Positions 26,653 to 37,165 of a stretch of 42,302 nt of DNA are shown in pieces. The DNA is from a virus, in the IMG/VR virus record IMGVR_UViG_3300033153_005813, positions 1 to 42,302 of that record; one strand, 5' to 3'. A program made the translations under genes and the position numbers. Below the pieces are notes generated by a model, which saw only the letters and a list, made by a program, of their open reading frames with translations, did no database searches and was not told where the DNA came from. Position 1 is the stretch's first letter; every line of letters starts with the position of its first letter.

Positions 26653-27954
26653 CTAGGAGGTGACGCCGTAGCGAATGGCGCAGGACTTGGAGCGCTTCAG
26701 CGCGGTCGCGATGCCGGCGCTGATTCTCCACTTGAAGTTCTGCGTGTTGTAGTCCTCCGCCAGCTTCCGCATGTAGACCGGGAGCTGGATGGACCCGCCC
26801 ACCGCGTCGTGGTCGGTCACCGCGGACATCACACCTTCGTTCGGACCGTTGTGGGCCCCGGCGATCATGTGGAAGCCGACGTCCTTGTTGAGACGCAGGC
26901 AGTAGACCGCCGAGCAGACACCGGAGCTCGAACCCTGGGTCTCAGTGATCGACACGTTCGAGTCGATGATGATGCGCTTCCCCTCGTAGGCGAGCGCACT
27001 CTTGGCAACGGTGCCATCCTGCATCTCGACGGGACGGGTGCCGCCCGCGGCCAGGATCAGGCCCTTGATCACCCGCGCGGTGCGATGACTCGTCAGGTAG
27101 ATCTTGTCGGACTCCGGGCCGAGCACCATGTCGTCCAACTCGTCGAGTTGGGCAAGGGTGATCGCGGCGCCGTTGGTGTCGATAGTCGGGACCTGGTTGG
27201 TGTCGAGCACGGCCAGCTGGCGGATACCCGCCATATTGGTTGGCATACCGAAGGTCAGCGCACCCGGCAGATCGAGGTCGACCGCGCCGCCGGTGAAGTC
27301 CGTTGCATCCACGGTCAGGGTAACCGACTTTTGCGAGTCGTCGCCGTCGGTCAGCGTGTAGTCCGCATCACCACCGGCGATGCTCACCCCGGTTCCGTAG
27401 GTCGTCGACCCGGGTGCCCTGAACGCGAGCAACGTCCCGGTGTGGGTGTACTCGACCCCGGCCACTCCGGTGGGCATGTTCGCCGAGATGGCGGTGCATG
27501 CGTCGAAGCCAGGCGTTGCCGCGAGGCCGGTTCCGGCGATGGTGCAGGCGGTGGTGGCCATGTACGCGCCGGTGAACAGCTTCCCGGAGATCGAAATCCC
27601 CATCGAGCGGATCAGGTCGAGCGCGTCGGCCATCTCCATGTTCGCCCCGGCCTGCATGGTCGAGCTCGAATGGATCGGGACCTCGATGTCACCGTGGCCG
27701 TACGCCAAGTACGTGGTGAGCTTCTTACGCAGCGCCTGGGTGCTCTCGTGGGTCGCGGTCTCGGCCTCCCACGTCACGGTGGGCGCGGTCTTGTTCAGGG
27801 TCCAGGAGTAGTCGACAGTGCCCGGCCACTGTTCGATCGGCATCATCCCCAACAGGGGGCGATTCTCGATCAGGGTGTTGATGATCTGCTTCTGCAGATA
27901 GTTGAGCCCGTTGTGCGAGCTCCACTCTGCAAAGGTTTGGGGGATATCCGCCAT
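26653..27954 (-). CDS. Major capsid protein (HK97-fold)
   Basis: A 433-aa protein. The N-terminal region includes KQIINTLIENRPLLGMMPIEQW, then QALRKKLTTYLAYGHGDIEVP; the C-terminus has VMSAVTDHDAVGGSIQLPVYMRKLAEDYNTQNFKWRISAG. Position after a scaffold gene and before neck genes, and size, fit a HK97-fold capsid. An extra beta-rich Ig-like insert lies near 165-240 (SVTLTVDATDFTGGAVDLDLPG). No separate protease gene was seen. Confidence 0.75.
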   Translation of the reverse strand: MADIPQTFAEWSSHNGLNYLQKQIINTLIENRPLLGMMPIEQWPGTVDYSWTLNKTAPTVTWEAETATHESTQALRKKLTTYLAYGHGDIEVPIHSSSTMQAGANMEMADALDLIRSMGISISGKLFTGAYMATTACTIAGTGLAATPGFDACTAISANMPTGVAGVEYTHTGTLLAFRAPGSTTYGTGVSIAGGDADYTLTDGDDSQKSVTLTVDATDFTGGAVDLDLPGALTFGMPTNMAGIRQLAVLDTNQVPTIDTNGAAITLAQLDELDDMVLGPESDKIYLTSHRTARVIKGLILAAGGTRPVEMQDGTVAKSALAYEGKRIIIDSNVSITETQGSSSGVCSAVYCLRLNKDVGFHMIAGAHNGPNEGVMSAVTDHDAVGGSIQLPVYMRKLAEDYNTQNFKWRISAGIATALKRSKSCAIRYGVTS

Positions 27955-27975: not shown

Positions 27976-28674
27976 TTACCTGCCGAACTCAGCGAATCCC
28001 TTCTTTAGGATTTGCTCAGGCGACAGTCCCTCCGTCGGGTCTTTCGGGGGCGGTGATCCAGGGGGCAGTCCCGCCCCCGGCCTCGGCAGGCCAGTCCCCT
28101 TTGCCTCGTGGAGGTCGTTTCGTTTTTTGTACCAGTCGCCGAGAGACGCGAGCGGATCATCCGCCGCGATCCCGTTGACCATTGCCTGGATGGAAAAGTC
28201 GCTTGGCTTGTCGCCGAGCACAGAAAGCTGATTCTCCGCGAGTGCCTCACGGGTGGCCGTAGCCATGTTCGCGGGGTTGACCCCGCTGGCGCGCAGTTGC
28301 TTACCGATCTCGCGGTGCAGCCAGTTCGCCTTCGCCTGGTCATAGAGGTCATCGCCGCGCTGCTTCTCGGCCGCGGTCGCGGCCTTGTGCGCTTCGATCT
28401 CCGTCTTGTGGTCGGCAATCTCACGGGCGGCGATCTGTTCGGCCGTCGCGTCGGCGTCCTGATACTTCTTGAGCGCGGCGCCCTGCTCGGTGTGCTCCTG
28501 TCGGAGCGCGGCAAGCGCAGCGTCGTGGTCAGCTTGAAGTGCCTGGCGCTTCGTGTCCTTGTCGGACAGTCGAGCTTTCAGGGTTCCCTGCGGGACGTAC
28601 CCGGGCAGGTCACCCGGATCGGCGTCGGCCAGGAGTGCGGTCATCTGTGTTTTCTGCTCGTCGGTCAGCGGCAT
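27976..28674 (-). CDS. Capsid scaffold protein
   Basis: A 232-aa protein, mainly a long Ala/Glu/Lys coiled coil (about 35-120), with a C-terminal region ending in SPEQILKKGFAEFGR and a Pro-rich linker PPGSPPPKDP. This is the form of phage scaffolding proteins and it sits just before the capsid gene. First gene of the late minus-strand operon; GGGAAGAGA precedes the ATG. Confidence 0.72.
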   Translation of the reverse strand: MPLTDEQKTQMTALLADADPGDLPGYVPQGTLKARLSDKDTKRQALQADHDAALAALRQEHTEQGAALKKYQDADATAEQIAAREIADHKTEIEAHKAATAAEKQRGDDLYDQAKANWLHREIGKQLRASGVNPANMATATREALAENQLSVLGDKPSDFSIQAMVNGIAADDPLASLGDWYKKRNDLHEAKGTGLPRPGAGLPPGSPPPKDPTEGLSPEQILKKGFAEFGR

Positions 28675-28885: not shown

Positions 28886-29059
28886 ATGAACAAGCGCAAA
28901 ACACAGAACATCCGGGTTCACACGGTTCAACGGCACGCGCTCAAGATCGCGGGCGCTAGGCTGGACTGCCCTATTCATGAGGTGGTTGATCGGCTGATGG
29001 ATGGAGAGGCCGTGGCGCAAAAGGTATGCAAGGAAGCGAACAAGGAAGCGAAAAAATGA
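28886..29059 (+). CDS. Small RHH-like protein, first gene of the plus-strand block
   Basis: A 57-aa basic protein. NIRVHTVQRHALKIAGARL followed by CPIHEVVDRLMDGE resembles the strand-helix-helix pattern of CopG/Arc-type regulators. The Lys-rich tail fits DNA binding. It is followed by a strong terminator-like hairpin, so it may be transcribed at a different level from the rest of the block. As the first gene after a divergent region it is a candidate switch regulator. No good ribosome site precedes the ATG. Confidence 0.55.
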   Translation: MNKRKTQNIRVHTVQRHALKIAGARLDCPIHEVVDRLMDGEAVAQKVCKEANKEAKK

Positions 29060-29066
29060 ATCGGTC

Positions 29067-29134
29067 GGCCTTCTCTCGCGCCACCCATCACCTCCCAGTC
29101 CCCCCAAGGCGCGAGAGTCGGCTGGCCCTTTTTG
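29067..29134 (+). terminator. Rho-independent terminator or attenuator
   Basis: CTCTCGCGCC (29073-29082) pairs exactly with GGCGCGAGAG (29109-29118); outer GGCC (29067-29070 with 29125-29128) extends the stem, and CTTTTTG follows. It lies between the RHH-like gene and the gene at 29145. The 26-nt loop is long for a terminator, and the T-tract follows the outer stem. Partial termination would lower expression of the downstream block. Confidence 0.6.
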
Positions 29135-29144
29135 AAAGGACACC

Positions 29145-29468
29145 ATGAGCATCCAGAGCAAAGCACAAGACGCTATCATCGTCGTTTCCGCGATGGCGAA
29201 TCCGCACTGCCCCCACCCCAGAAAGCGGCTCGCGAAAATGCGGCGCATCCTGGAGGGTGGCGCCATCGACAGACTGGACCTGGCGCGGGTACTCCTGGCC
29301 GACGTGGGCGCCGAGAACTGCAGCCCTCGACGGCGTGCGCTATGGAGCAAGACGACGAAGCGACTCGCGGATGAAACGTCGCGCCGTTATCGCGTGGTCC
29401 GGTCGAAGGCGAAGGCTGCGAAGAAGGCAGCAGCGAAGGCGCGGGCCGAGGTCGAGGCGAACCGATGA
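29145..29468 (+). CDS. Basic hypothetical protein with histone-like Lys/Ala tail
   Basis: A 107-aa protein. The N-terminal 60 residues look globular (AIIVVSAMANPHCPHPRKRL, AIDRLDLARVLLADVG). The C-terminal 35 residues (VVRSKAKAAKKAAAKARAE) are an H1-like Lys/Ala helix, suggesting DNA or RNA binding. AAAGGA lies upstream of the ATG. Family not recognised. Confidence 0.6.
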   Translation: MSIQSKAQDAIIVVSAMANPHCPHPRKRLAKMRRILEGGAIDRLDLARVLLADVGAENCSPRRRALWSKTTKRLADETSRRYRVVRSKAKAAKKAAAKARAEVEANR

Positions 29469-29593
29469 CCGACTTCCACGCCGTATCCCTCGGCATCATC
29501 ATCGGCACTGTGCTGTTTTTCTTCTTACTCAAGATGGGATGGCTTGGACCAATGATGCACTGGCTGTTCACCCCAAGAAAGCGCCGACCATGA
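29465..29593 (+). CDS. 42-residue membrane protein
   Basis: A small frame with ATGA overlaps at both ends (29465-29468 and 29590-29593). It encodes one hydrophobic span (VSLGIIIGTVLFFFLLKMGWLG) and a basic tail ending RKRRP, predicting an N-out, C-in inner-membrane peptide. Function is unknown; the coupling directly to the SspB-like gene suggests co-expression. Confidence 0.6.
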   Translation: MTDFHAVSLGIIIGTVLFFFLLKMGWLGPMMHWLFTPRKRRP

Positions 29594-29934
29594 CCGAAGC
29601 AGTCCACACCCTGACCAGCAAGGTGCTCGCTACCGGCGCCATGGTCCGCATCGCGTTCCTGGTGAAGGTGCCCGGGGTGATTGTACCCGACCACCTTAGC
29701 GACAACGAAGCGCTGGCCCTGGACTTCGGGCACTTCGCGCCCACGCCTATCAAGGACCTGGTGTGCAACGAGTTCGGCATCGGCGGGACGCTTCGCTTCG
29801 GGGCTGAATTCGTCTGGTGTTTCATTCCGTGGATCGCGGTGGTCAGCGTCCACAAACACGGCGACGAGATGGCAGCACCCGAACCCGAGACGCCCCGATG
29901 GACGCCGACGGTTATCGACGGAGGGAAAAAATGA
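29590..29934 (+). CDS. SspB-like ClpXP adaptor homologue
   Basis: A 114-aa protein. SspB adaptors deliver ssrA-tagged proteins to ClpXP protease. The SspB-type core is recognisable at about 28-88: PGVIVPDHL, a strand ALDFG, then CNEFGIGGTLRFGAEFVWCFIPWIAVVSV, matching the family's VP...L, F-G and IPW/VP-V pattern. The C-terminal tail is Pro/Glu-rich and ends in IDGGKK, which in SspB carries the ClpX-binding motif. No standard ClpX-binding signature is evident here. The ATG overlaps the upstream stop as ATGA. The fold call is inferred from pattern. Confidence 0.62.
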   Translation: MTEAVHTLTSKVLATGAMVRIAFLVKVPGVIVPDHLSDNEALALDFGHFAPTPIKDLVCNEFGIGGTLRFGAEFVWCFIPWIAVVSVHKHGDEMAAPEPETPRWTPTVIDGGKK

Positions 29935-30194
29935 TCGACTGCTGCGAACGCTTAGCCCTGATCCTGGTGGCCGGAAACGTCATTGCCCTCGGTGATAGCC
30001 AGCTCGGCGCGAAGTGGCTTGCACACCAAACCAGGGTGCACACCATGGCCGGTGACGGGTGCGCGGAGTCGTGCGCGCTATGTCGCGAAGTGGTGGCGAA
30101 GATGGTCCCGGACATGCGAGCCGGGATGCTACCAGGTGCGGTGGCTGCCGTTGGTATGCGTCAGCTTGCGGTGGCGCTGAGTGAATTGCTTTGA
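29931..30194 (+). CDS. Cysteine-containing hypothetical protein
   Basis: An 87-aa protein. The N-terminal part (IDCCERLALILVAGNVIALGDSQLG) is followed by a cysteine group CAESCALC near 44-51; the C-terminus is Ala/Leu-rich and helical. Possible metal binding; function unknown. The ATG overlaps the SspB-like stop, so they are coupled. It is the last protein gene before the RNA tract. Confidence 0.6.
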   Translation: MIDCCERLALILVAGNVIALGDSQLGAKWLAHQTRVHTMAGDGCAESCALCREVVAKMVPDMRAGMLPGAVAAVGMRQLAVALSELL

Positions 30195-30205
30195 AGTGGC
30201 TTTCT

Positions 30206-30270
30206 GGACCTGTGGTTGCTGGAGCACGGCCCCGCATGCAGGCTCCCCGGTTCGATTCCGGGCAGGTCCA
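30206..30270 (+). tRNA. tRNA-like gene 1 (65 nt, possible CAT anticodon, reduced D/variable arms)
   Basis: Acceptor GGACCTG pairs perfectly with CAGGTCC, and a T-arm CCCGG-TTCGATT-CCGGG is complete. Only 33 nt remain between them. A 3-bp D stem (TGC/GCA with TGGA loop) and an anticodon arm with loop CGCATGC, placing CAT in the centre, are the best fit. Position 33 would be G rather than T, the anticodon stem has a C-A mismatch and the variable region is almost absent. No CCA is encoded. It may be a degenerate tRNA or a tRNA mimic. Confidence 0.5.
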
Positions 30271-30441
30271 TAGCTCGGTTGTAAGCGACCCAGGTAAGCG
30301 CTCGTGATGCGAGAAAGCTGCCAGGTAAATGACCAACCGTGTAAGAGCCGCTCTGGCCCAGGCGGCGGTGGAGGATGGGATAACCCGGACGGTGTTGTAT
30401 CGGCCACACGTTGGCACCGATCCGGGCCCCTATGGGCTTCT
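30271..30441 (+). ncRNA. Folded RNA spacer between tRNA-like genes 1 and 2
   Basis: No credible protein gene is seen. CCCGGACGGTG (30384-30394) pairs with CACCGaTCCGGG (30415-30426) as 11 bp with a single bulged A and a 20-nt loop. Smaller hairpins are CTCG-TGATG-CGAG (30301-30313) within AGC/GCT, and a GCCGC/GCGGC stem near 30350. The density of paired segments suggests a structured RNA co-transcribed with the tRNA-like genes. Its function is unknown. Confidence 0.4.
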
Positions 30442-30514
30442 GGAGCGATAGTACAAATGGCAAGTGCACCGGGCCGTAACCCCGCAAATCCTGGTTCGAA
30501 TCCAGGTCGCTCCA
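30442..30514 (+). tRNA. tRNA-like gene 2 (73 nt, GTA anticodon, Tyr-like but short variable arm)
   Basis: A full cloverleaf: acceptor GGAGCGA/TCGCTCC, D stem GTAC/GTGC with GG in the loop, anticodon stem CCGGG/CCCGC with one C-C mismatch, loop CCGTAAC and T-arm CCTGG-TTCGAAT-CCAGG. The central triplet GTA would read Tyr codons. Oddities are C at position 33 instead of U and a 4-nt variable region, where bacterial Tyr tRNAs have a long one. No CCA is encoded. It is the best tRNA of the three. Confidence 0.65.
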
Positions 30515-30602
30515 TCCCCACAGGGGTCCGCAAGCCATGGTGTGGTCGAGACACTCCATCAGGGCCCGGCATAATCGGCGATAGTCGCCCTGTGGGGATT
30601 TT
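30514..30602 (+). ncRNA. Spacer closed by a perfect 12-bp inverted repeat between tRNA-like genes 2 and 3
   Basis: ATCCCCACAGGG (30514-30525) is mirrored by CCCTGTGGGGAT (30588-30599), followed by TTT. The 62-nt interior contains a further hairpin ATGGTGT-GGTCGAG-ACA-ct-CCAT with a 7-nt loop, and CGA-TAG-TCG. The arrangement could be a self-contained small RNA, a processing signal, or a terminator with a short T-tract. No protein gene is seen. Confidence 0.45.
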
Positions 30603-30603
30603 C

Positions 30604-30674
30604 GCGCGGGTAGCTCAAGCAGAGACGCGGCCTTAATCGGCCGTGGGATGCAGGTTCGATTCCTGCCCTGTGCA
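30604..30674 (+). tRNA. tRNA-like gene 3 (71 nt, TAA-like anticodon with odd loop size)
   Basis: Acceptor GCGCGGG/CCTGTGC (two G-U pairs), TA, a 3-bp D stem CTC/GAG, and T-arm GCAGG-TTCGATT-CCTGC are clear. The anticodon arm is CGGCC-TTAATC-GGCCG, giving a 6-nt loop, or an 8-nt loop CTTAATCG if the top pair opens. The TAA triplet would read Leu UUA but the short variable region is unlike Leu tRNA. An 8-nt loop is typical of frameshift-suppressor tRNAs. No CCA is encoded. Confidence 0.55.
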
Positions 30675-30686
30675 TAGGAGGACGAT

Positions 30687-30920
30687 GTGACCAAGGCACA
30701 ACGAGCAATGGACCGAAGGAACTGGGCCGAGATTCGTCGAGCACGACGGCGCCAAATGGATATCAACCCAAACGGCGCGTTTTCGCTTCTACGACAAGAC
30801 CTCGAACGCCTGCTCGACGACGCCGACAAACTCGCCGAGTTGGAAGGTCTCATGAAGAAGTGGGTTCCAACCGTCGACGAAATCCGCGAGGCGTTCGCTG
30901 TGATGGATAAAGTGAGGTGA
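30687..30920 (+). CDS. Hypothetical helical protein with LLDDADKLAELE motif
   Basis: A 77-aa protein. The GTG at 30687 is preceded by AGGAGGACGAT, an excellent ribosome site located 4 nt after tRNA-like gene 3. Basic N-terminus, then a long helix with LLDDADKLAELEGL, shared in form with the proteins at 30925 and 1227. Family unknown. Confidence 0.65.
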   Translation: MTKAQRAMDRRNWAEIRRARRRQMDINPNGAFSLLRQDLERLLDDADKLAELEGLMKKWVPTVDEIREAFAVMDKVR

Positions 30921-30924
30921 CGCG

Positions 30925-31506
30925 ATGAAAACGACGCAGCAGGAGCGGGTGGTCGAGCTGGCGACGGAATGGCGCGCGATACTTCGCGCGGAACTTGAAC
31001 ACCAAGAAGATCAACCCCTCGACGCCATCGGGGCAATGCGGGTCCACACCGGCCAACTCCGCGCGCTACTCAACGACGCCGACCGGTGCGCCGAGCTGGA
31101 GAAGCGCTACGAGATACAAGCCGAGGAGGGCATGAAGTCCCTGACCGAACTGACCACCAGATACGCACGGCTGAAGGAACGAATCCGCATGGTGGCGAAC
31201 GATATGAACAACATGAGCACTGAGCGCGCAGGTTCATTCGTCGATGCGCTGCTGTATCTGACCGGCGACAAACCCGCCGAAGTCCGCGTCGAGCTGAAGG
31301 GTATCCCGGACCACTTCAAGAGCCACCGCGAACAGATCAACGACCTGGTGGAAGTGGTCGCGCGCCTAGAGGCCGAGTCGGCGCGGCTCAGGGCGGGGAT
31401 TGAGGGCGTATCGACGTACATCCACAGAAGGACGCTCGGCAAGGGTATGATGCGAGCAGACGCCGTGTACAAACGTGTTCGCGCGCTTCTGGAGGGCGGG
31501 GGATGA
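30925..31506 (+). CDS. Coiled-coil hypothetical protein with LLNDADRCAELE motif
   Basis: A 193-aa almost wholly helical protein with coiled coils near 1-60 and 125-160. LLNDADRCAELEKRYE near residue 48 repeats the motif of the neighbouring gene. VHTGQLRALL precedes it. The C-terminal segment (GVSTYIHRRTLGKGMMRADAVYKRVRALLEGG) may be a separate helical bundle. The family is unknown; a scaffold or adaptor role is only a guess. Confidence 0.6.
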   Translation: MKTTQQERVVELATEWRAILRAELEHQEDQPLDAIGAMRVHTGQLRALLNDADRCAELEKRYEIQAEEGMKSLTELTTRYARLKERIRMVANDMNNMSTERAGSFVDALLYLTGDKPAEVRVELKGIPDHFKSHREQINDLVEVVARLEAESARLRAGIEGVSTYIHRRTLGKGMMRADAVYKRVRALLEGGG

Positions 31507-31700
31507 GCGCATTAGTCGAGCCATGCTGTGACACACCGGAAATCGAATTGCGTGAGTACAGCAACCCAGCCGTCAGGGTTGTCCACACCCAGTGCAACAA
31601 CTGCGGCGCCCTGACTGTGACGTCTATCAGATACAAGCCGGCGGCTGCACCGGAAGTTATCGCAGTGAACGATACCCAACGAAAGGACCCCAACAAATGA
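31503..31700 (+). CDS. Small zinc-ribbon-like protein
   Basis: A 65-aa protein with CC (8-9) and CNNC (31-34), forming a probable zinc site around a beta hairpin (VRVVHTQCNNCGALTVTSIRY). It overlaps both neighbours by ATGA and is followed directly by the GroES-like gene. Confidence 0.6.
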   Translation: MSALVEPCCDTPEIELREYSNPAVRVVHTQCNNCGALTVTSIRYKPAAAPEVIAVNDTQRKDPNK

Positions 31701-32014
31701 GACCCATGAACGGACACATCCTGGTGAGAGAGCTGCAAGTAAACGGCAGCATCACCCCCGCCGGTGTCGTGCTCCCCGAGCCCATCAACTGTCAATACGA
31801 GATCGGCTCGGTGCTCGCCATCCACGAGGACACCGACGACGACGGGCGGCTCACCACGAAGCTCGACCTGGGCAACCTCGTCGCCTACCGCGCTGGAGCC
31901 GGGGTCGCCATCCGGGTGCAGGATACGCAATGCCGGTTCCTTTTCGAGGCGAACGTGATCGCCGTGTTGGAGGAGAAGCCGATGGAAGTTCCCGAGGATG
32001 GGGAGAAACATTGA
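31697..32014 (+). CDS. GroES-like co-chaperonin (Cpn10 fold)
   Basis: A 105-aa protein. The Cpn10 pattern is clear: MRPMNGHILVREL, then a mobile-loop region NGSITPAGVVLPE (about 17-28), then IGSVLAI, LGNLVAYRAGAG, RVQDTQCRFLFEANVIAVLEE. It has the length and strand order of GroES/gp31-like proteins. It would cap host GroEL during folding, for example of capsid protein. The expected GGIVL tripeptide appears as AGVVL. A trailing PEDGEKH extension is unusual. The ATG overlaps the upstream stop as ATGA. Confidence 0.75.
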   Translation: MRPMNGHILVRELQVNGSITPAGVVLPEPINCQYEIGSVLAIHEDTDDDGRLTTKLDLGNLVAYRAGAGVAIRVQDTQCRFLFEANVIAVLEEKPMEVPEDGEKH

Positions 32015-32148
32015 CCGACGAATTCCCATACGGTATCACACTCGCCGCGCTGGTCGAGTTGGAAGACAACCTGCCCAGGGAGTCATCTTACAACCTCGCC
32101 GAGTATTACGCATGGCTGTGGTGGTATCGGTCGGAGTGGCATAGATGA
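32011..32148 (+). CDS. Small hypothetical protein (TTG start)
   Basis: A 45-aa protein. TTG at 32011 overlaps the GroES-like stop as TTGA, and the stop overlaps the next ATG. The C-terminal part is Trp/Tyr-rich (AEYYAWLWWYRSEWHR). Function unknown; coupling at both ends supports it. Confidence 0.5.
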   Translation: MTDEFPYGITLAALVELEDNLPRESSYNLAEYYAWLWWYRSEWHR

Positions 32149-32441
32149 GCATCACGCGCTACCTGTGTACTATCCCCCGCACATTCCGCCTGCTGTTCAG
32201 TCAGTCCCGCGAATGCGAACGCCTGGCTCTCAACATAGTAATGGTGTACCCCGAGCTGGGGCGCGAGTGGATGGACACCATCATCAAGCGGGCTCACTAT
32301 GTGGCGTCACGGTCGGCGCTATACGGTCCGGTCGACCTGATGAATCGGCTCTACCACAAGTTGTTCTTGCTCGGCTTCAAGGCGCAACTGGACGACCTGC
32401 GCGACGTGGACAACGCCATCCCGGAGGAGTGGGCACGATGA
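32145..32441 (+). CDS. Hypothetical helical protein
   Basis: A 98-aa protein of mainly helical pattern (CERLALNIVMVYPELGREWMDTII, LMNRLYHKLFLLGFKAQLDDL). Family unknown. It overlaps neighbours at both ends by 4 nt. Confidence 0.55.
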   Translation: MSITRYLCTIPRTFRLLFSQSRECERLALNIVMVYPELGREWMDTIIKRAHYVASRSALYGPVDLMNRLYHKLFLLGFKAQLDDLRDVDNAIPEEWAR

Positions 32442-32653
32442 CCCCCTGCCCCAACTGCGCCGACACCGCCCGCATGGTCTACGACGCCGTCGAGGATTTC
32501 AAGAAACTGAAGCGCGATCGATTCATCATTCGGATCGGTTGCTCCTGCCCCGCCGAGTGGGGCCGCGCATCACACCGCGACTTCTCTCAGACTGAAAACG
32601 GTGAGCTGTTCTGGCGGGCGGACATCGGGATTGTGACGGAGTGGCCGGAGTAA
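32438..32653 (+). CDS. Small zinc-finger protein
   Basis: A 71-aa protein with CPNC (4-7) and CSCP near 35, separated by a helix (ARMVYDAVEDFKKLKRDRF), consistent with a treble-clef or ribbon zinc site. It ends with taa overlapping the next ATG (TAATG). Confidence 0.55.
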   Translation: MTPCPNCADTARMVYDAVEDFKKLKRDRFIIRIGCSCPAEWGRASHRDFSQTENGELFWRADIGIVTEWPE

Positions 32654-32907
32654 TGGCGCTCTTTGACGGCGTTCGTGCTGCACGTGGCACACATTCAGAT
32701 GCAGAGCATGCAGCGAAAGCGAAGTACTATAATTCTCTGCGCGGTCCTAGGCGGCTGTGGCGTGACCCATCCTGTGTGGTGGGCTGTGATCTCATCGCAA
32801 TCGAGTGGAATAAATTTGAGGTCGCGTGCAGTGCCTATCCTGCCGAGTCCAACCAGATGCCAGATGATTTCACCGAACCCGATCCGTCTGCTTTTTGGGA
32901 CATCTAA
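32653..32907 (+). CDS. Hypothetical protein, last gene of the plus-strand block
   Basis: An 84-aa protein. ATG at 32653 overlaps the upstream stop as TAATG; a GTG at 32641 is less likely. A beta-rich centre (CDLIAIEWNKFEVAC) is followed by an acidic C-terminus. It ends overlapping the converging minor head gene by 4 nt, with no terminator between. Confidence 0.5.
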   Translation: MALFDGVRAARGTHSDAEHAAKAKYYNSLRGPRRLWRDPSCVVGCDLIAIEWNKFEVACSAYPAESNQMPDDFTEPDPSAFWDI

Positions 32908-34193
32908 CTGAACTCCATCAACTCCTCGTCGCTGAGCGGTGCATTCAACCGCCGCTTGTCCATCACAGGTTCGAGCCAGCACATACAGTGAGGATGCGCC
33001 ATCAGCCGGGCATCCTTCCCGGCCACCGCTTCCCTCGATAGCCGCTTACCCGCGAGAGATTCGCACGCGCACCGTCGACGGCGCCGCTTGCCCTTGCCCT
33101 TGCGGCCAGGTAGCGAGAACGTCCGGCGTGGCTTCGTTGTGCTAACGAAGCCCGCCCGCGCCGACCTGTTCAATCTCCAGATATAGCCCACGATCCAGTC
33201 GTGCTTCTGGTCCGACAGGATCTGCTGACTCTTAAACGCGGCCTGCTGCTCGGTTTTTAGAATACGCTCGGCCGCGTACTTCTGCTTGAAAGCGGCGTGC
33301 TGTCGGATGGCGCGGTCGATGCCCTTCGCCGAGGTGTCCGACGTGCGCTGTAGTAGCTCCAACATGGACGACTGCGTCCGCCCACCCTCGGACAGACGCC
33401 GCATATACGACCGCATCTGCCGGCGGGTGGCCTGCCATTCCTTCAGCGCCTTCTCACCGCCCCGAGTGTTGAGGTCGCGGCCCGCCTTCTCGACCCGCTG
33501 CATCAGCTTGCTCATCTTCTGGTTTCTGCCGAGCTCGCCCGCGCCACCCTTCCGGACCTCGCGGATCATGTCGGTAGCCGCCGCGGTCAGCTGCTTCGAT
33601 TCACGGACCGCGGCCATGGCCTGAGACGCGACTTCGCGACCCGCCTTGACGCCCCGCCCGTGGAGCTTCGACGATATCACCCGGGCCTGCTTCCAGGGTT
33701 TGACGTGCTCACGGAGGAGCTTGTCCCCTAGGAACTTCGCAGGGGCCCGAGAAGCGGGCTGTGAGAGGAGTACTTCGGTCGATAGGGCCGTGGTGGTCTG
33801 CTGGCGCCCTTGGCTCAATACGCGTGCTGTGACGGTCCCTGAGAAGGGCTGAGGGTTGATGTACTGCACTGAGAAGGCGTCGATCATCTCGGCGTACCGG
33901 ATGCCCAGGGTGGCGGCTACCTCGATTTGCCCGGCCAGGGCCTCGCCGAGCCGCCCATAGTGGTGCTCCATCAGCCTGTTGACTTGGCGTTCGATGGTCC
34001 GTGGGTTGTAGTCGCTTCTTCGGATGGCGTCGACCGTGCGCCGCACATCGCCGTCAAGGGCAATCCCCAGGTCGTCGGCCGCGTCTGCCAGGTCGGCCAT
34101 CATCTTGTCTCGGATGCGGGCCATGCGGTCGACCTGCAGACGGGGCAGACGGACGACGTCGCGATCGTCGAGGATGGTTCGCGTGGTGACCAC
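32904..34193 (-). CDS. MuF/SPP1 gp7-like minor head protein
   Basis: A 429-aa protein, largely helical. The C-terminal part contains a KGKRRRRRCACESLAGKRL stretch and HPHCMCWLEPV, the Cys/His form typical of MuF C-terminal domains. It follows the portal gene by 0 nt, as head morphogenesis proteins usually do. GTG is the start. Its late location before the plus-strand block, with scaffold and capsid genes beyond that block, is unusual. Confidence 0.72.
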   Translation of the reverse strand: MVTTRTILDDRDVVRLPRLQVDRMARIRDKMMADLADAADDLGIALDGDVRRTVDAIRRSDYNPRTIERQVNRLMEHHYGRLGEALAGQIEVAATLGIRYAEMIDAFSVQYINPQPFSGTVTARVLSQGRQQTTTALSTEVLLSQPASRAPAKFLGDKLLREHVKPWKQARVISSKLHGRGVKAGREVASQAMAAVRESKQLTAAATDMIREVRKGGAGELGRNQKMSKLMQRVEKAGRDLNTRGGEKALKEWQATRRQMRSYMRRLSEGGRTQSSMLELLQRTSDTSAKGIDRAIRQHAAFKQKYAAERILKTEQQAAFKSQQILSDQKHDWIVGYIWRLNRSARAGFVSTTKPRRTFSLPGRKGKGKRRRRRCACESLAGKRLSREAVAGKDARLMAHPHCMCWLEPVMDKRRLNAPLSDEELMEFS

Positions 34194-35807
34194 CTACCGC
34201 GCGCCCCCGTCCGCCCGAATGTCGTCCATCTCCTCCTCTCCACCGTCGCCGCCCTTCTCGTCCAGCCGTTCCTTCGCGTCGGCGCCCCGGGCCTGCAGAT
34301 CGTCCGGATCGTTGTCGGCGTCCAGGTCGGCTTCCTCTTCGGATACTTTGACCTCATCGCGGATCGTCGTCCGGAGCTTCTCGTCCATGTCACCCAACGC
34401 GACGTTGGCCATCTTGACCTGCGCCTCCACCCGGGCTGCTTCGGACTTGACCTGCGCCAACACACGCTCCAACCCGTCCATCTCCTTCTCCACGTCCTTG
34501 GCGTCGAACTCAGACGGCCACGAGCAACGGACCTTCTCGTCGACCGGCTCGCCTTCTTCGAGACCTACCCGCGCCAGTGACCGCGACTCGCTACGGCTGA
34601 AGCTGTCGGCGGTGACTTGCAACAGCCTGACGATCTTGGCCATCTTGAATTGGAAGGCCACCCCCGTCTGACCCGAACCGCTATCGAAGTCGAGGCCCAT
34701 CGTGGATAGAATCTCCTCAACAAGCGCCACCCGCTTCGCCATGAAATGTTCGAGCACGTGAGGTGGCGGGGCCATCCAGAAGGGGACATTCGTCGCCTGG
34801 TCATCGAACCACCAGACGTTGTCGGACCCGGACTGCGCGACACGCTCGCCCTTCTGCGCCGGCCGCCCTGGAGAGGCGAGCATCGCGAAGGTAGTCTCTC
34901 GCTCCTGCTCCTGGATGAGCGAGTTGACGTTGAATGCCTCCCGCTGTACCGCGTTGGCGTCCTGGGTGAGCGCTCCACCACGAAGGGACCACACGACGAT
35001 CGGCATTCCATTCGCCCACTCACCCGCGATGGGCTTTCCGTCGTCGTCGAGGGCGATGGGGAGTTCCGATGCGGTCTTGTCCTTGTTGTCGTCGACCGCC
35101 CACCAACCCTCCTGCGTGTACCACGTGTAACGGTCGACTAGTACTTGCTGCTCGTCGAGTGGGCCGGTCTTGTCCACCACCGTCTTGACCTTCAGCCACT
35201 CGAACCCCGAGGTGCCGGCCTTCCAGTGGATGATATTCTCCGGGTTGATGACCTCCACCACCAGCTGGCCACCTTGGTCAATCTGCTGCTTCGCGGTCAC
35301 CGCGTCAGTTGGGGCACGGTAGAAGATGACCGGCAGCCAACCATAGTAAATGGTCTGGGGTACGATGTCGTGCGACTTGACCTGCTCCCACGTGTCGCCG
35401 TCCGCGTTGACACTAGACATCCAGTCCGTGACGGCCTTCGGGTACTTGTCATAAAACGGCTGCTTCTTCGTCAAGAAACCCGCCAGCATGTTGACGGCCT
35501 TTTTGATCACGTTCGTCAGGTAGCTCATCGCGTACCGACGATGAAACTTCATCTTCTCGCGTGGGTGTCTGAACAGGTGGGTCCGGACGTTGGCGTCGAT
35601 CTTGAACGACCCCGCCTGCTCGTCGTCGGGCTGAGTGTCGCTCAGGTTGACGTCCTCTAGAAACGGCGCGTAGCCGCCGCTACCCTCGTAGTTCTCACGC
35701 CCAAAGCGCAGGTCACGCAGCTGCGCCTGATATCTCGGATGCTCGACGATGACCGCCGCGCGTGGAATGGTAGTGCCCGGATCGGGGATGCCTAGAGATT
35801 GACCCAT
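34194..35807 (-). CDS. Portal protein
   Basis: A 537-aa protein. Portal features are the clip/wing pattern with PRAAVIVEHPRYQAQLRDLRFGRENY, MLAGFLTKKQPFY, VINPENIIHWKAG, DGKPIAGEWANGMPIVVWSLRGGAL, and the C-terminal helical VALVEEILSTMGLDFDS and LLQVTADSFSRSE segments. It forms the ring through which DNA enters. The acidic C-terminal tail (about 465-537) is typical. It overlaps TerL by 16 nt. Confidence 0.8.
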   Translation of the reverse strand: MGQSLGIPDPGTTIPRAAVIVEHPRYQAQLRDLRFGRENYEGSGGYAPFLEDVNLSDTQPDDEQAGSFKIDANVRTHLFRHPREKMKFHRRYAMSYLTNVIKKAVNMLAGFLTKKQPFYDKYPKAVTDWMSSVNADGDTWEQVKSHDIVPQTIYYGWLPVIFYRAPTDAVTAKQQIDQGGQLVVEVINPENIIHWKAGTSGFEWLKVKTVVDKTGPLDEQQVLVDRYTWYTQEGWWAVDDNKDKTASELPIALDDDGKPIAGEWANGMPIVVWSLRGGALTQDANAVQREAFNVNSLIQEQERETTFAMLASPGRPAQKGERVAQSGSDNVWWFDDQATNVPFWMAPPPHVLEHFMAKRVALVEEILSTMGLDFDSGSGQTGVAFQFKMAKIVRLLQVTADSFSRSESRSLARVGLEEGEPVDEKVRCSWPSEFDAKDVEKEMDGLERVLAQVKSEAARVEAQVKMANVALGDMDEKLRTTIRDEVKVSEEEADLDADNDPDDLQARGADAKERLDEKGGDGGEEEMDDIRADGGAR

Positions 35808-37165
35808 GATGTCCTCGGTGGTTGCTTTACCCGGGAAGTGTAGATGGCATATCGAAGGGCATCAATCGCGTGGTCGTCGCCGATGGTCTCGCCCTCTTTC
35901 GCCTTCCTGTCATCCTCGGGGTCGTTAGCGTCTCGCAGTTCGCGCAGTTCGCGGATTAGGTTAACACACCGGTCACTGATGTACAGTCGGGGAGCTCCAC
36001 CAGGGATATCCGGGTCGAGATGTTGAACGTGGCTACGACGGTGGAGCAAGTTGCGCACTTCGTCGGTACCCGCCTGCCAGGCGTTGTCAGCTGCAGCGGC
36101 GTCGAGCTCGTAGTGCTCGCCCTGCCACTCGAAGCCCTTGCGCCACTTGTCGATGTTACTCGGCTCGGACGGGTCACAGAAATAACTCGTCCCTCGCGGT
36201 GACTCCTTGTGCGTTTCCGCCCCCTGCTGTTCGATCTGCGTCTCCGTCTTGTACCATTCGCCCAGCACACCGAACGTTCCGCCGTCTCCACACCAGCCAC
36301 CCCAGATGCTCGACCCAGGTGCAGTCCAGCCCCAGTCAGCCCCGCCGATCCGCCGACGGATGGACCGCCTGTAGAGGTCCAGCACCATCGCGTGTGGTAC
36401 GACGTGCAGGCCCTTGGCGAAGTCGGAGTAAATGAGACCGGTCGCTTGGACGATGGCGCCGTCTAATTCTTGGGCCTCGAATGACCCCTCAAACACAGCG
36501 CGCATCCGCTTGGCGTATTGCCCGGGGTTGTGCGTATTCCATTCAGTCTTAGCCTGACGAACGAAGTAGTCGGGCCTCGGCGTGTAGCCGCCTGTCAGCG
36601 CCTCCACCGGCAAACCGTCCTGGACGTCGAATGCCTCTGGTAGCCAACCTGGCTTCGGCGTGGTGGTGATGAAAATCCCGTTGTACGGGGCATCGTACCG
36701 AAGGCGCTCAAGTGAATACTTCCACGCCAACGCGCCATGCTTGAATGCGCATGCCTCCTCCATGTAGACCCACGCCACGGTGAGCCCGATGATTTTCGCC
36801 ACATTGCGGCGGTCGTGTGCGCTGCGGATGTAGATCCAACTGGACCCCTCCGACGTGTACACCTCAATCGCCGGCCGGTTGCCTGAGACGCGGAAGTCGT
36901 AGACCTCGTCGGGCCAGATTTCCATTATCAGCGGCTTGATGACATCGTGGTAGGTCGGATAGTCGGGAACGACGATCAGGCCTGGGCAGCCGGGGTCGAC
37001 CACCGTGGCCATCTCCAACATTTCCTCGACGCCTGCGTAACTCTTGCCACCACCTACCCCGGTGCAGAGCCAGCGAAAGGTATGCGTCTCGCGTGCCTTG
37101 TGGAAGTCGTACTGATGCCACTCGGGCTCGTAATCCACATCAACCTGCAGGGCCGGCTCTGTCAT
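35792..37165 (-). CDS. Terminase large subunit
   Basis: A 457-aa packaging motor. Walker A GVGGGKS (36-42), Walker B WVYMEEA (132-138), coupling region TTTPKPGW, and nuclease acidic residues in ADWGWT (Asp277), FCDPSEP (Asp331) and DDHAIDALRYAI (430-441). All motifs are intact. It cuts and pumps phage DNA into the prohead. It is preceded by TerS with an ATGA overlap and followed by the portal. Confidence 0.92.
   Translation of the reverse strand: MTEPALQVDVDYEPEWHQYDFHKARETHTFRWLCTGVGGGKSYAGVEEMLEMATVVDPGCPGLIVVPDYPTYHDVIKPLIMEIWPDEVYDFRVSGNRPAIEVYTSEGSSWIYIRSAHDRRNVAKIIGLTVAWVYMEEACAFKHGALAWKYSLERLRYDAPYNGIFITTTPKPGWLPEAFDVQDGLPVEALTGGYTPRPDYFVRQAKTEWNTHNPGQYAKRMRAVFEGSFEAQELDGAIVQATGLIYSDFAKGLHVVPHAMVLDLYRRSIRRRIGGADWGWTAPGSSIWGGWCGDGGTFGVLGEWYKTETQIEQQGAETHKESPRGTSYFCDPSEPSNIDKWRKGFEWQGEHYELDAAAADNAWQAGTDEVRNLLHRRSHVQHLDPDIPGGAPRLYISDRCVNLIRELRELRDANDPEDDRKAKEGETIGDDHAIDALRYAIYTSRVKQPPRTSWVNL

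Follow-up and report, generated by a model that had tools for sequence, protein, structure and literature searches.

A contractile-tail phage without close known relatives encodes a compact protein, here called P0001, that is very probably a very divergent homologue of SspB. Bacterial SspB, a specificity-enhancing factor of ClpXP, delivers tagged proteins to this protease, and its tag binding is lineage-specific. The gene lies in the window, by which we mean the whole stretch of DNA analysed, a 42,302-base IMG/VR virus record with contractile-tail phage genes. The original prediction proposed a possible SspB-like ClpXP adaptor here on the basis of a few short motifs, and the open reading frame and these motifs are present exactly as it described them (PGVIVP at residues 28–33, FGIGGTLRFG at 62–71 and IPWIAVVSV at 79–87). 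The SspB-like reading is borne out as distant homology, with SspB alone among the meaningful family and genome matches. The gene and its parts are as follows:

29590–29934, + strand: coding sequence of the SspB-like protein P0001 (ATG start, 114 amino acids)
29626–29856, + strand: SspB-type core (PGVIVP ... LRFG ... CFIPW; residues 13–89), from a single-domain profile match and alignments
29908–29931, + strand: TVIDGGKK, a candidate ClpX-docking tail (residues 107–114) that resembles the end of a protein of phage PA7 and elements of SspB tails

The region behaves like a real gene, as indicated by its GC content by codon position (0.63/0.44/0.80), by codon usage that resembles that of the structural genes of the phage solely in this frame (+0.197, with the other five frames negative), and by ATGA overlaps with both flanking genes. 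The motif pair by itself is unremarkable: at least 119 IMG/VR viral contigs contain the same DNA pattern, and no SspB was found among the 10,275 ORFs of the motif-pair viral contigs listed. It is the match over the whole domain that exceeds chance.

SspB is the sole curated family matched by P0001 (Pfam E 0.067; NCBIfam E 0.075). These matches alone are weak support for SspB, and because they score under the curated cut-offs (13.7 bits versus 27 for Pfam PF04386; 13 versus 249 for NCBIfam), we name the protein SspB-like rather than filing it as SspB. Stronger matches were obtained with a profile built from 158 SspB proteins from fetched loci, from which P0001 was left out. With this profile P0001 scored 20.1 bits (P 1.9e-8) and ranked first among the 622 ORFs of the window, while the best of 20,000 shuffled versions of P0001 reached 12.0 bits and the reversed sequence gave no match. 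A profile of a divergent clade of SspBs scored higher still, at 23.0 bits (P 3.2e-9), as one domain over residues 13–89, with shuffles at or below 9.9 bits. The E. coli-type and alpha-type SspB profiles gave 13.2 and 5.1 bits, respectively. Correcting for every library family (taken as about 25,000) and every window gene (taken as about 60) brings the profile P values, by our estimate, to only about 0.005–0.03.

The reverse search, with P0001 as the query against 784 whole bacterial genomes (385 + 399), returned six matches at E ≤ 1e-3, each of which is the SspB gene of the genome concerned. These genes score 84.6–99.5 bits on the SspB profile, and the alpha-type, the E. coli-type and the divergent SspBs are all represented among them. 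Chance alone would give about 0.8 matches at this threshold, and landing on an SspB gene by chance would be rare; the six are related to one another and thus are not six independent proofs. Together, the profile P values and a reverse search that found only SspB point to a homologous SspB core domain in P0001.

The divergence of P0001 is considerable. Relatives close enough to show conservation were found in none of IMG/VR, GenBank phages, plasmids and GTDB genomes; a match to a Microvirga plasmid (E 0.1, DUF411) was put aside as probable chance. In a phylogenetic tree P0001 stands alone on a long unresolved branch, grouping with none of the sampled SspBs. Scans of IMG/VR with SspB alignments gave no confirmed SspB; GenBank phages do contain SspBs, so these scans miss divergent relatives. 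The core of P0001 aligns with that of cellular SspBs (PF04386) over approximately 75–90 residues, including the PGVxVP, LRFG and IPxxA positions, but with 10–25% identity, in a short form of 114 residues. The divergent clade (L122, L125–L127, L135 and L137–L139), which gives the best profile score, also has the signature LRFG....C.IP[YWF] in common with P0001, and several of its members carry an internal VI[DE]GG element similar to the P0001 tail. In contrast to P0001, its members are cellular and most also have a terminal LRLV-type end, and the tree does not place P0001 inside the clade. Within the clade itself, the signature takes the form LRFGGxPHYCxIPY, and several members have a second XB-like element, VIEGG, in a pre-terminal position.

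Structure prediction from the single P0001 sequence was uninformative (AlphaFold2, pLDDT 40), and a PDB search with that sequence gave chance matches only. When an alignment of 35 SspB sequences was supplied, AlphaFold2 produced a model with a mean pLDDT of 84.4, in which 73 of 114 residues reach at least 90, consisting of one helix (residues 2–14), six strands (residues 19–89) and a low-confidence tail. All 19 PDB matches of this model at E ≤ 0.001 are SspB, and the next fold appears at E 0.095; in a viral library, proteins annotated as stringent starvation protein B are among its first matches. Since the alignment given to AlphaFold2 held SspBs only, the model is to be read as showing compatibility with the SspB fold and not as independent proof. 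At that level, the helix and six strands of the model, and the flexible linker and tail that follow the core, are as in SspB. Neither a clearly different fold nor another family, the two outcomes that the original prediction named as grounds for abandoning SspB, turned up in the searches or in this model.

It is highly improbable that P0001 is not an SspB and that the likeness to it is a chance likeness of another small beta-barrel protein. The scores under the curated cut-offs would fit such a reading, as would the behaviour of a repetitive, out-of-frame control ORF, L264, which totals 25.9 bits with the divergent-clade profile. However, L264, which was rejected as an SspB and whose reading frame opposes a 763-amino-acid ORF, owes its total to a repeat in which two stretches of 19 residues match at about 12 bits apiece, whereas P0001 gives a single 77-residue match. 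The reverse search that finds SspB alone, the shuffles at or below 12 bits and the agreement of the tail also argue against chance likeness.

The C-terminus of P0001, which the original prediction did not mention, ends in PRWTPTVIDGGKK (TVIDGGKK). The cellular SspBs examined end in LRVVK-type or SLDAFRKK-type peptides (for C-terminal peptides of cellular SspB, see PMC12373786), and a canonical XB (ClpX-binding) end of the LRVVK or SLDxFRKK type is absent from P0001. Elements of the form VI[DE]G[GD] do occur in cellular SspB tails: SVIDGDKP precedes the XB of E. coli SspB, and VIEGG stands at the corresponding place in several divergent SspBs. The pattern [VI][IVM][DEK]G[GDN] within the last 14 residues was found in 1 of 10,275 viral control ORFs, a rarity that is suggestive only because the motif was defined after the tail had been seen. 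A counterpart is a protein of the phiKZ-like Pseudomonas phage PA7, which ends in TPKLTVIKGGKK (TVIKGGKK). Like P0001 it is phage-encoded, very divergent and SspB-like with a similar C-terminus, but it is 302 amino acids long, its tail is separated from its core by a long stretch, it comes from a phage of more than 260 kb, and the two cores are not especially close. Its gene (L006, 1971–2879) is annotated as hypothetical, and the KLTVIKGGKK end of its product, which follows an SspB-like core, resembles an XB motif plus GGKK. We infer that TVIDGGKK is a candidate atypical ClpX-docking peptide.

The genomic setting of the gene is that of a phage and not of a contaminating host, with virion genes on both sides of the cassette in which it lies. 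Family matches in the window include terminase, portal, major capsid protein, tail sheath, tape measure, and baseplate hub and wedge. Searches of IMG/VR for relatives through the capsid, terminase and GroES genes returned none. The genes of the head region are:

26653–27954, − strand: major capsid protein
27976–28674, − strand: 232-amino-acid ORF with no family match, located where a scaffold or protease gene usually lies
32904–34193, − strand: head morphogenesis
34194–35807, − strand: portal
35792–37165, − strand: terminase

This − strand head cluster is split, between the gene for head morphogenesis and the ORF beside the major capsid gene, by a cassette of about 28.9–32.9 kb (28886–32907) that holds small + strand genes and two tRNA genes and that looks like an accessory (moron-like) insertion. 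Besides the SspB-like gene, it includes:

29145–29468, + strand: gene of unknown function (107 amino acids, no family match), ATGA-coupled to the next gene
29465–29593, + strand: probable single-span membrane protein (42 amino acids, one hydrophobic stretch), ATGA-coupled to the SspB-like gene
29931–30194, + strand: Cys-containing protein (87 amino acids; CC ... CAESCALC), ATGA-coupled to the SspB-like gene
31697–32014, + strand: GroES-like co-chaperonin (Pfam Cpn10 1.2e-8, above cut-off; PHROG co-chaperonin GroES 7.6e-6)

The coupling of the SspB-like gene to the membrane and Cys protein genes holds as first proposed, while the unusual combination that was seen in it amounts to adjacency; family searches with the 42- and 87-amino-acid proteins gave no significant match. 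The GroES-like gene, to which the original prediction did not refer, lies 1.8 kb downstream of the SspB-like gene on the same strand of the cassette. To judge from their position, an adaptor and a co-chaperonin in one cassette would be in keeping with a protein quality-control function during infection. A search of a defence library gave nothing for the SspB-like gene. The tRNA gene at 30604–30674 (+) scores 43 bits with Rfam, and ARAGORN gives just a two-base anticodon for it. The segment at 30202–30272 (+) is tRNA-like: it has a long acceptor-like stem and TTCGATT in its 3′ arm, but neither ARAGORN nor Rfam accepts a D-arm in it; its fold is no better than that of shuffles (z −0.91), and it could be a degenerate tRNA.

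We consider it moderately likely that P0001 acts as a substrate adaptor that delivers proteins to the ClpXP of the host. The groove of its core would capture the tags of chosen proteins, which could be ssrA-tagged or could be phage or host proteins carrying their own tag. The flexible tail with its TVIDGGKK end may dock on the ClpX zinc-binding domain of the host, and ClpXP would then degrade the captured proteins during infection. The accessory cassette with its GroES-like gene suggests that the phage may bring its own protein quality-control factors. The original prediction also put forward possible consequences, namely that such a protein could redirect host proteolysis, shield phage proteins or aid the timing of lysis. 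A fuller version of the adaptor reading is decidedly unlikely as a whole. In it, P0001 would be a compact and deeply diverged ClpXP adaptor that recognises tags of its own and docks on ClpX through an alternative tail (VI[DK]GGKK), and the phage would use it together with its GroES to steer host protein quality control towards virion production.

An SspB-derived decoy or inhibitor, which would bind tags or touch ClpX unproductively and in this way shield proteins or compete with host SspB, is possible, though somewhat unlikely. The missing canonical XB end points in this direction, as does phage pf16, which carries an SspB-like ClpXP adaptor for which docking led to the proposal that it competes with host SspB for RseA (PMC5587285), but P0001 has kept an SspB-like tail rather than losing it. 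That the protein is an SspB homologue with another use, for example as a ClpX-independent peptide-binding module that helps to assemble or anchor phage proteins, perhaps jointly with the coupled membrane protein, seems very unlikely. The deep divergence, with its long unresolved branch, and the coupling to the small membrane protein gene would be in keeping with such a use; the tail, however, resembles SspB tails, and coupled adjacent small genes are common in phages and have little functional meaning. If P0001 does deliver specific proteins, as the preferred adaptor reading has it, it would reveal the benefit that phages draw from encoding a protease adaptor.

Phage SspB-like proteins are already known from pf16, RAY and phiKZ-like phages, so the find reported here is real but not unprecedented. 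The pf16 and RAY proteins are reported phage SspB-like ClpXP adaptors (PMC5587285, PMC10299810), and gp039 of RAY is cytoplasmic (PMC10299810). In contrast to P0001 they are nearer to cellular SspB (52.8% to E. coli for pf16) and have LRVVK or LTVVK ends; they come from larger phages and are not close relatives. The cited papers report no substrate of phage SspB-like proteins. To the earlier examples, which come from several large phages, P0001 adds, as its sequence indicates, a newly found SspB-like protein that is very divergent and compact, from a phage that lacks close known relatives. It also points to another, second kind of C-terminus, common to P0001 and PA7, as a candidate ClpX-docking peptide. 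In the GenBank phage collection, E. coli SspB matches 85 records, at least one of which is plainly a bacterial contig. The GenBank record L002 (CAKLQH020000054.1) is labelled as an Acinetobacter phage and carries rpsI-sspA-sspB together with accC, which marks it as a contig of a bacterial chromosome.
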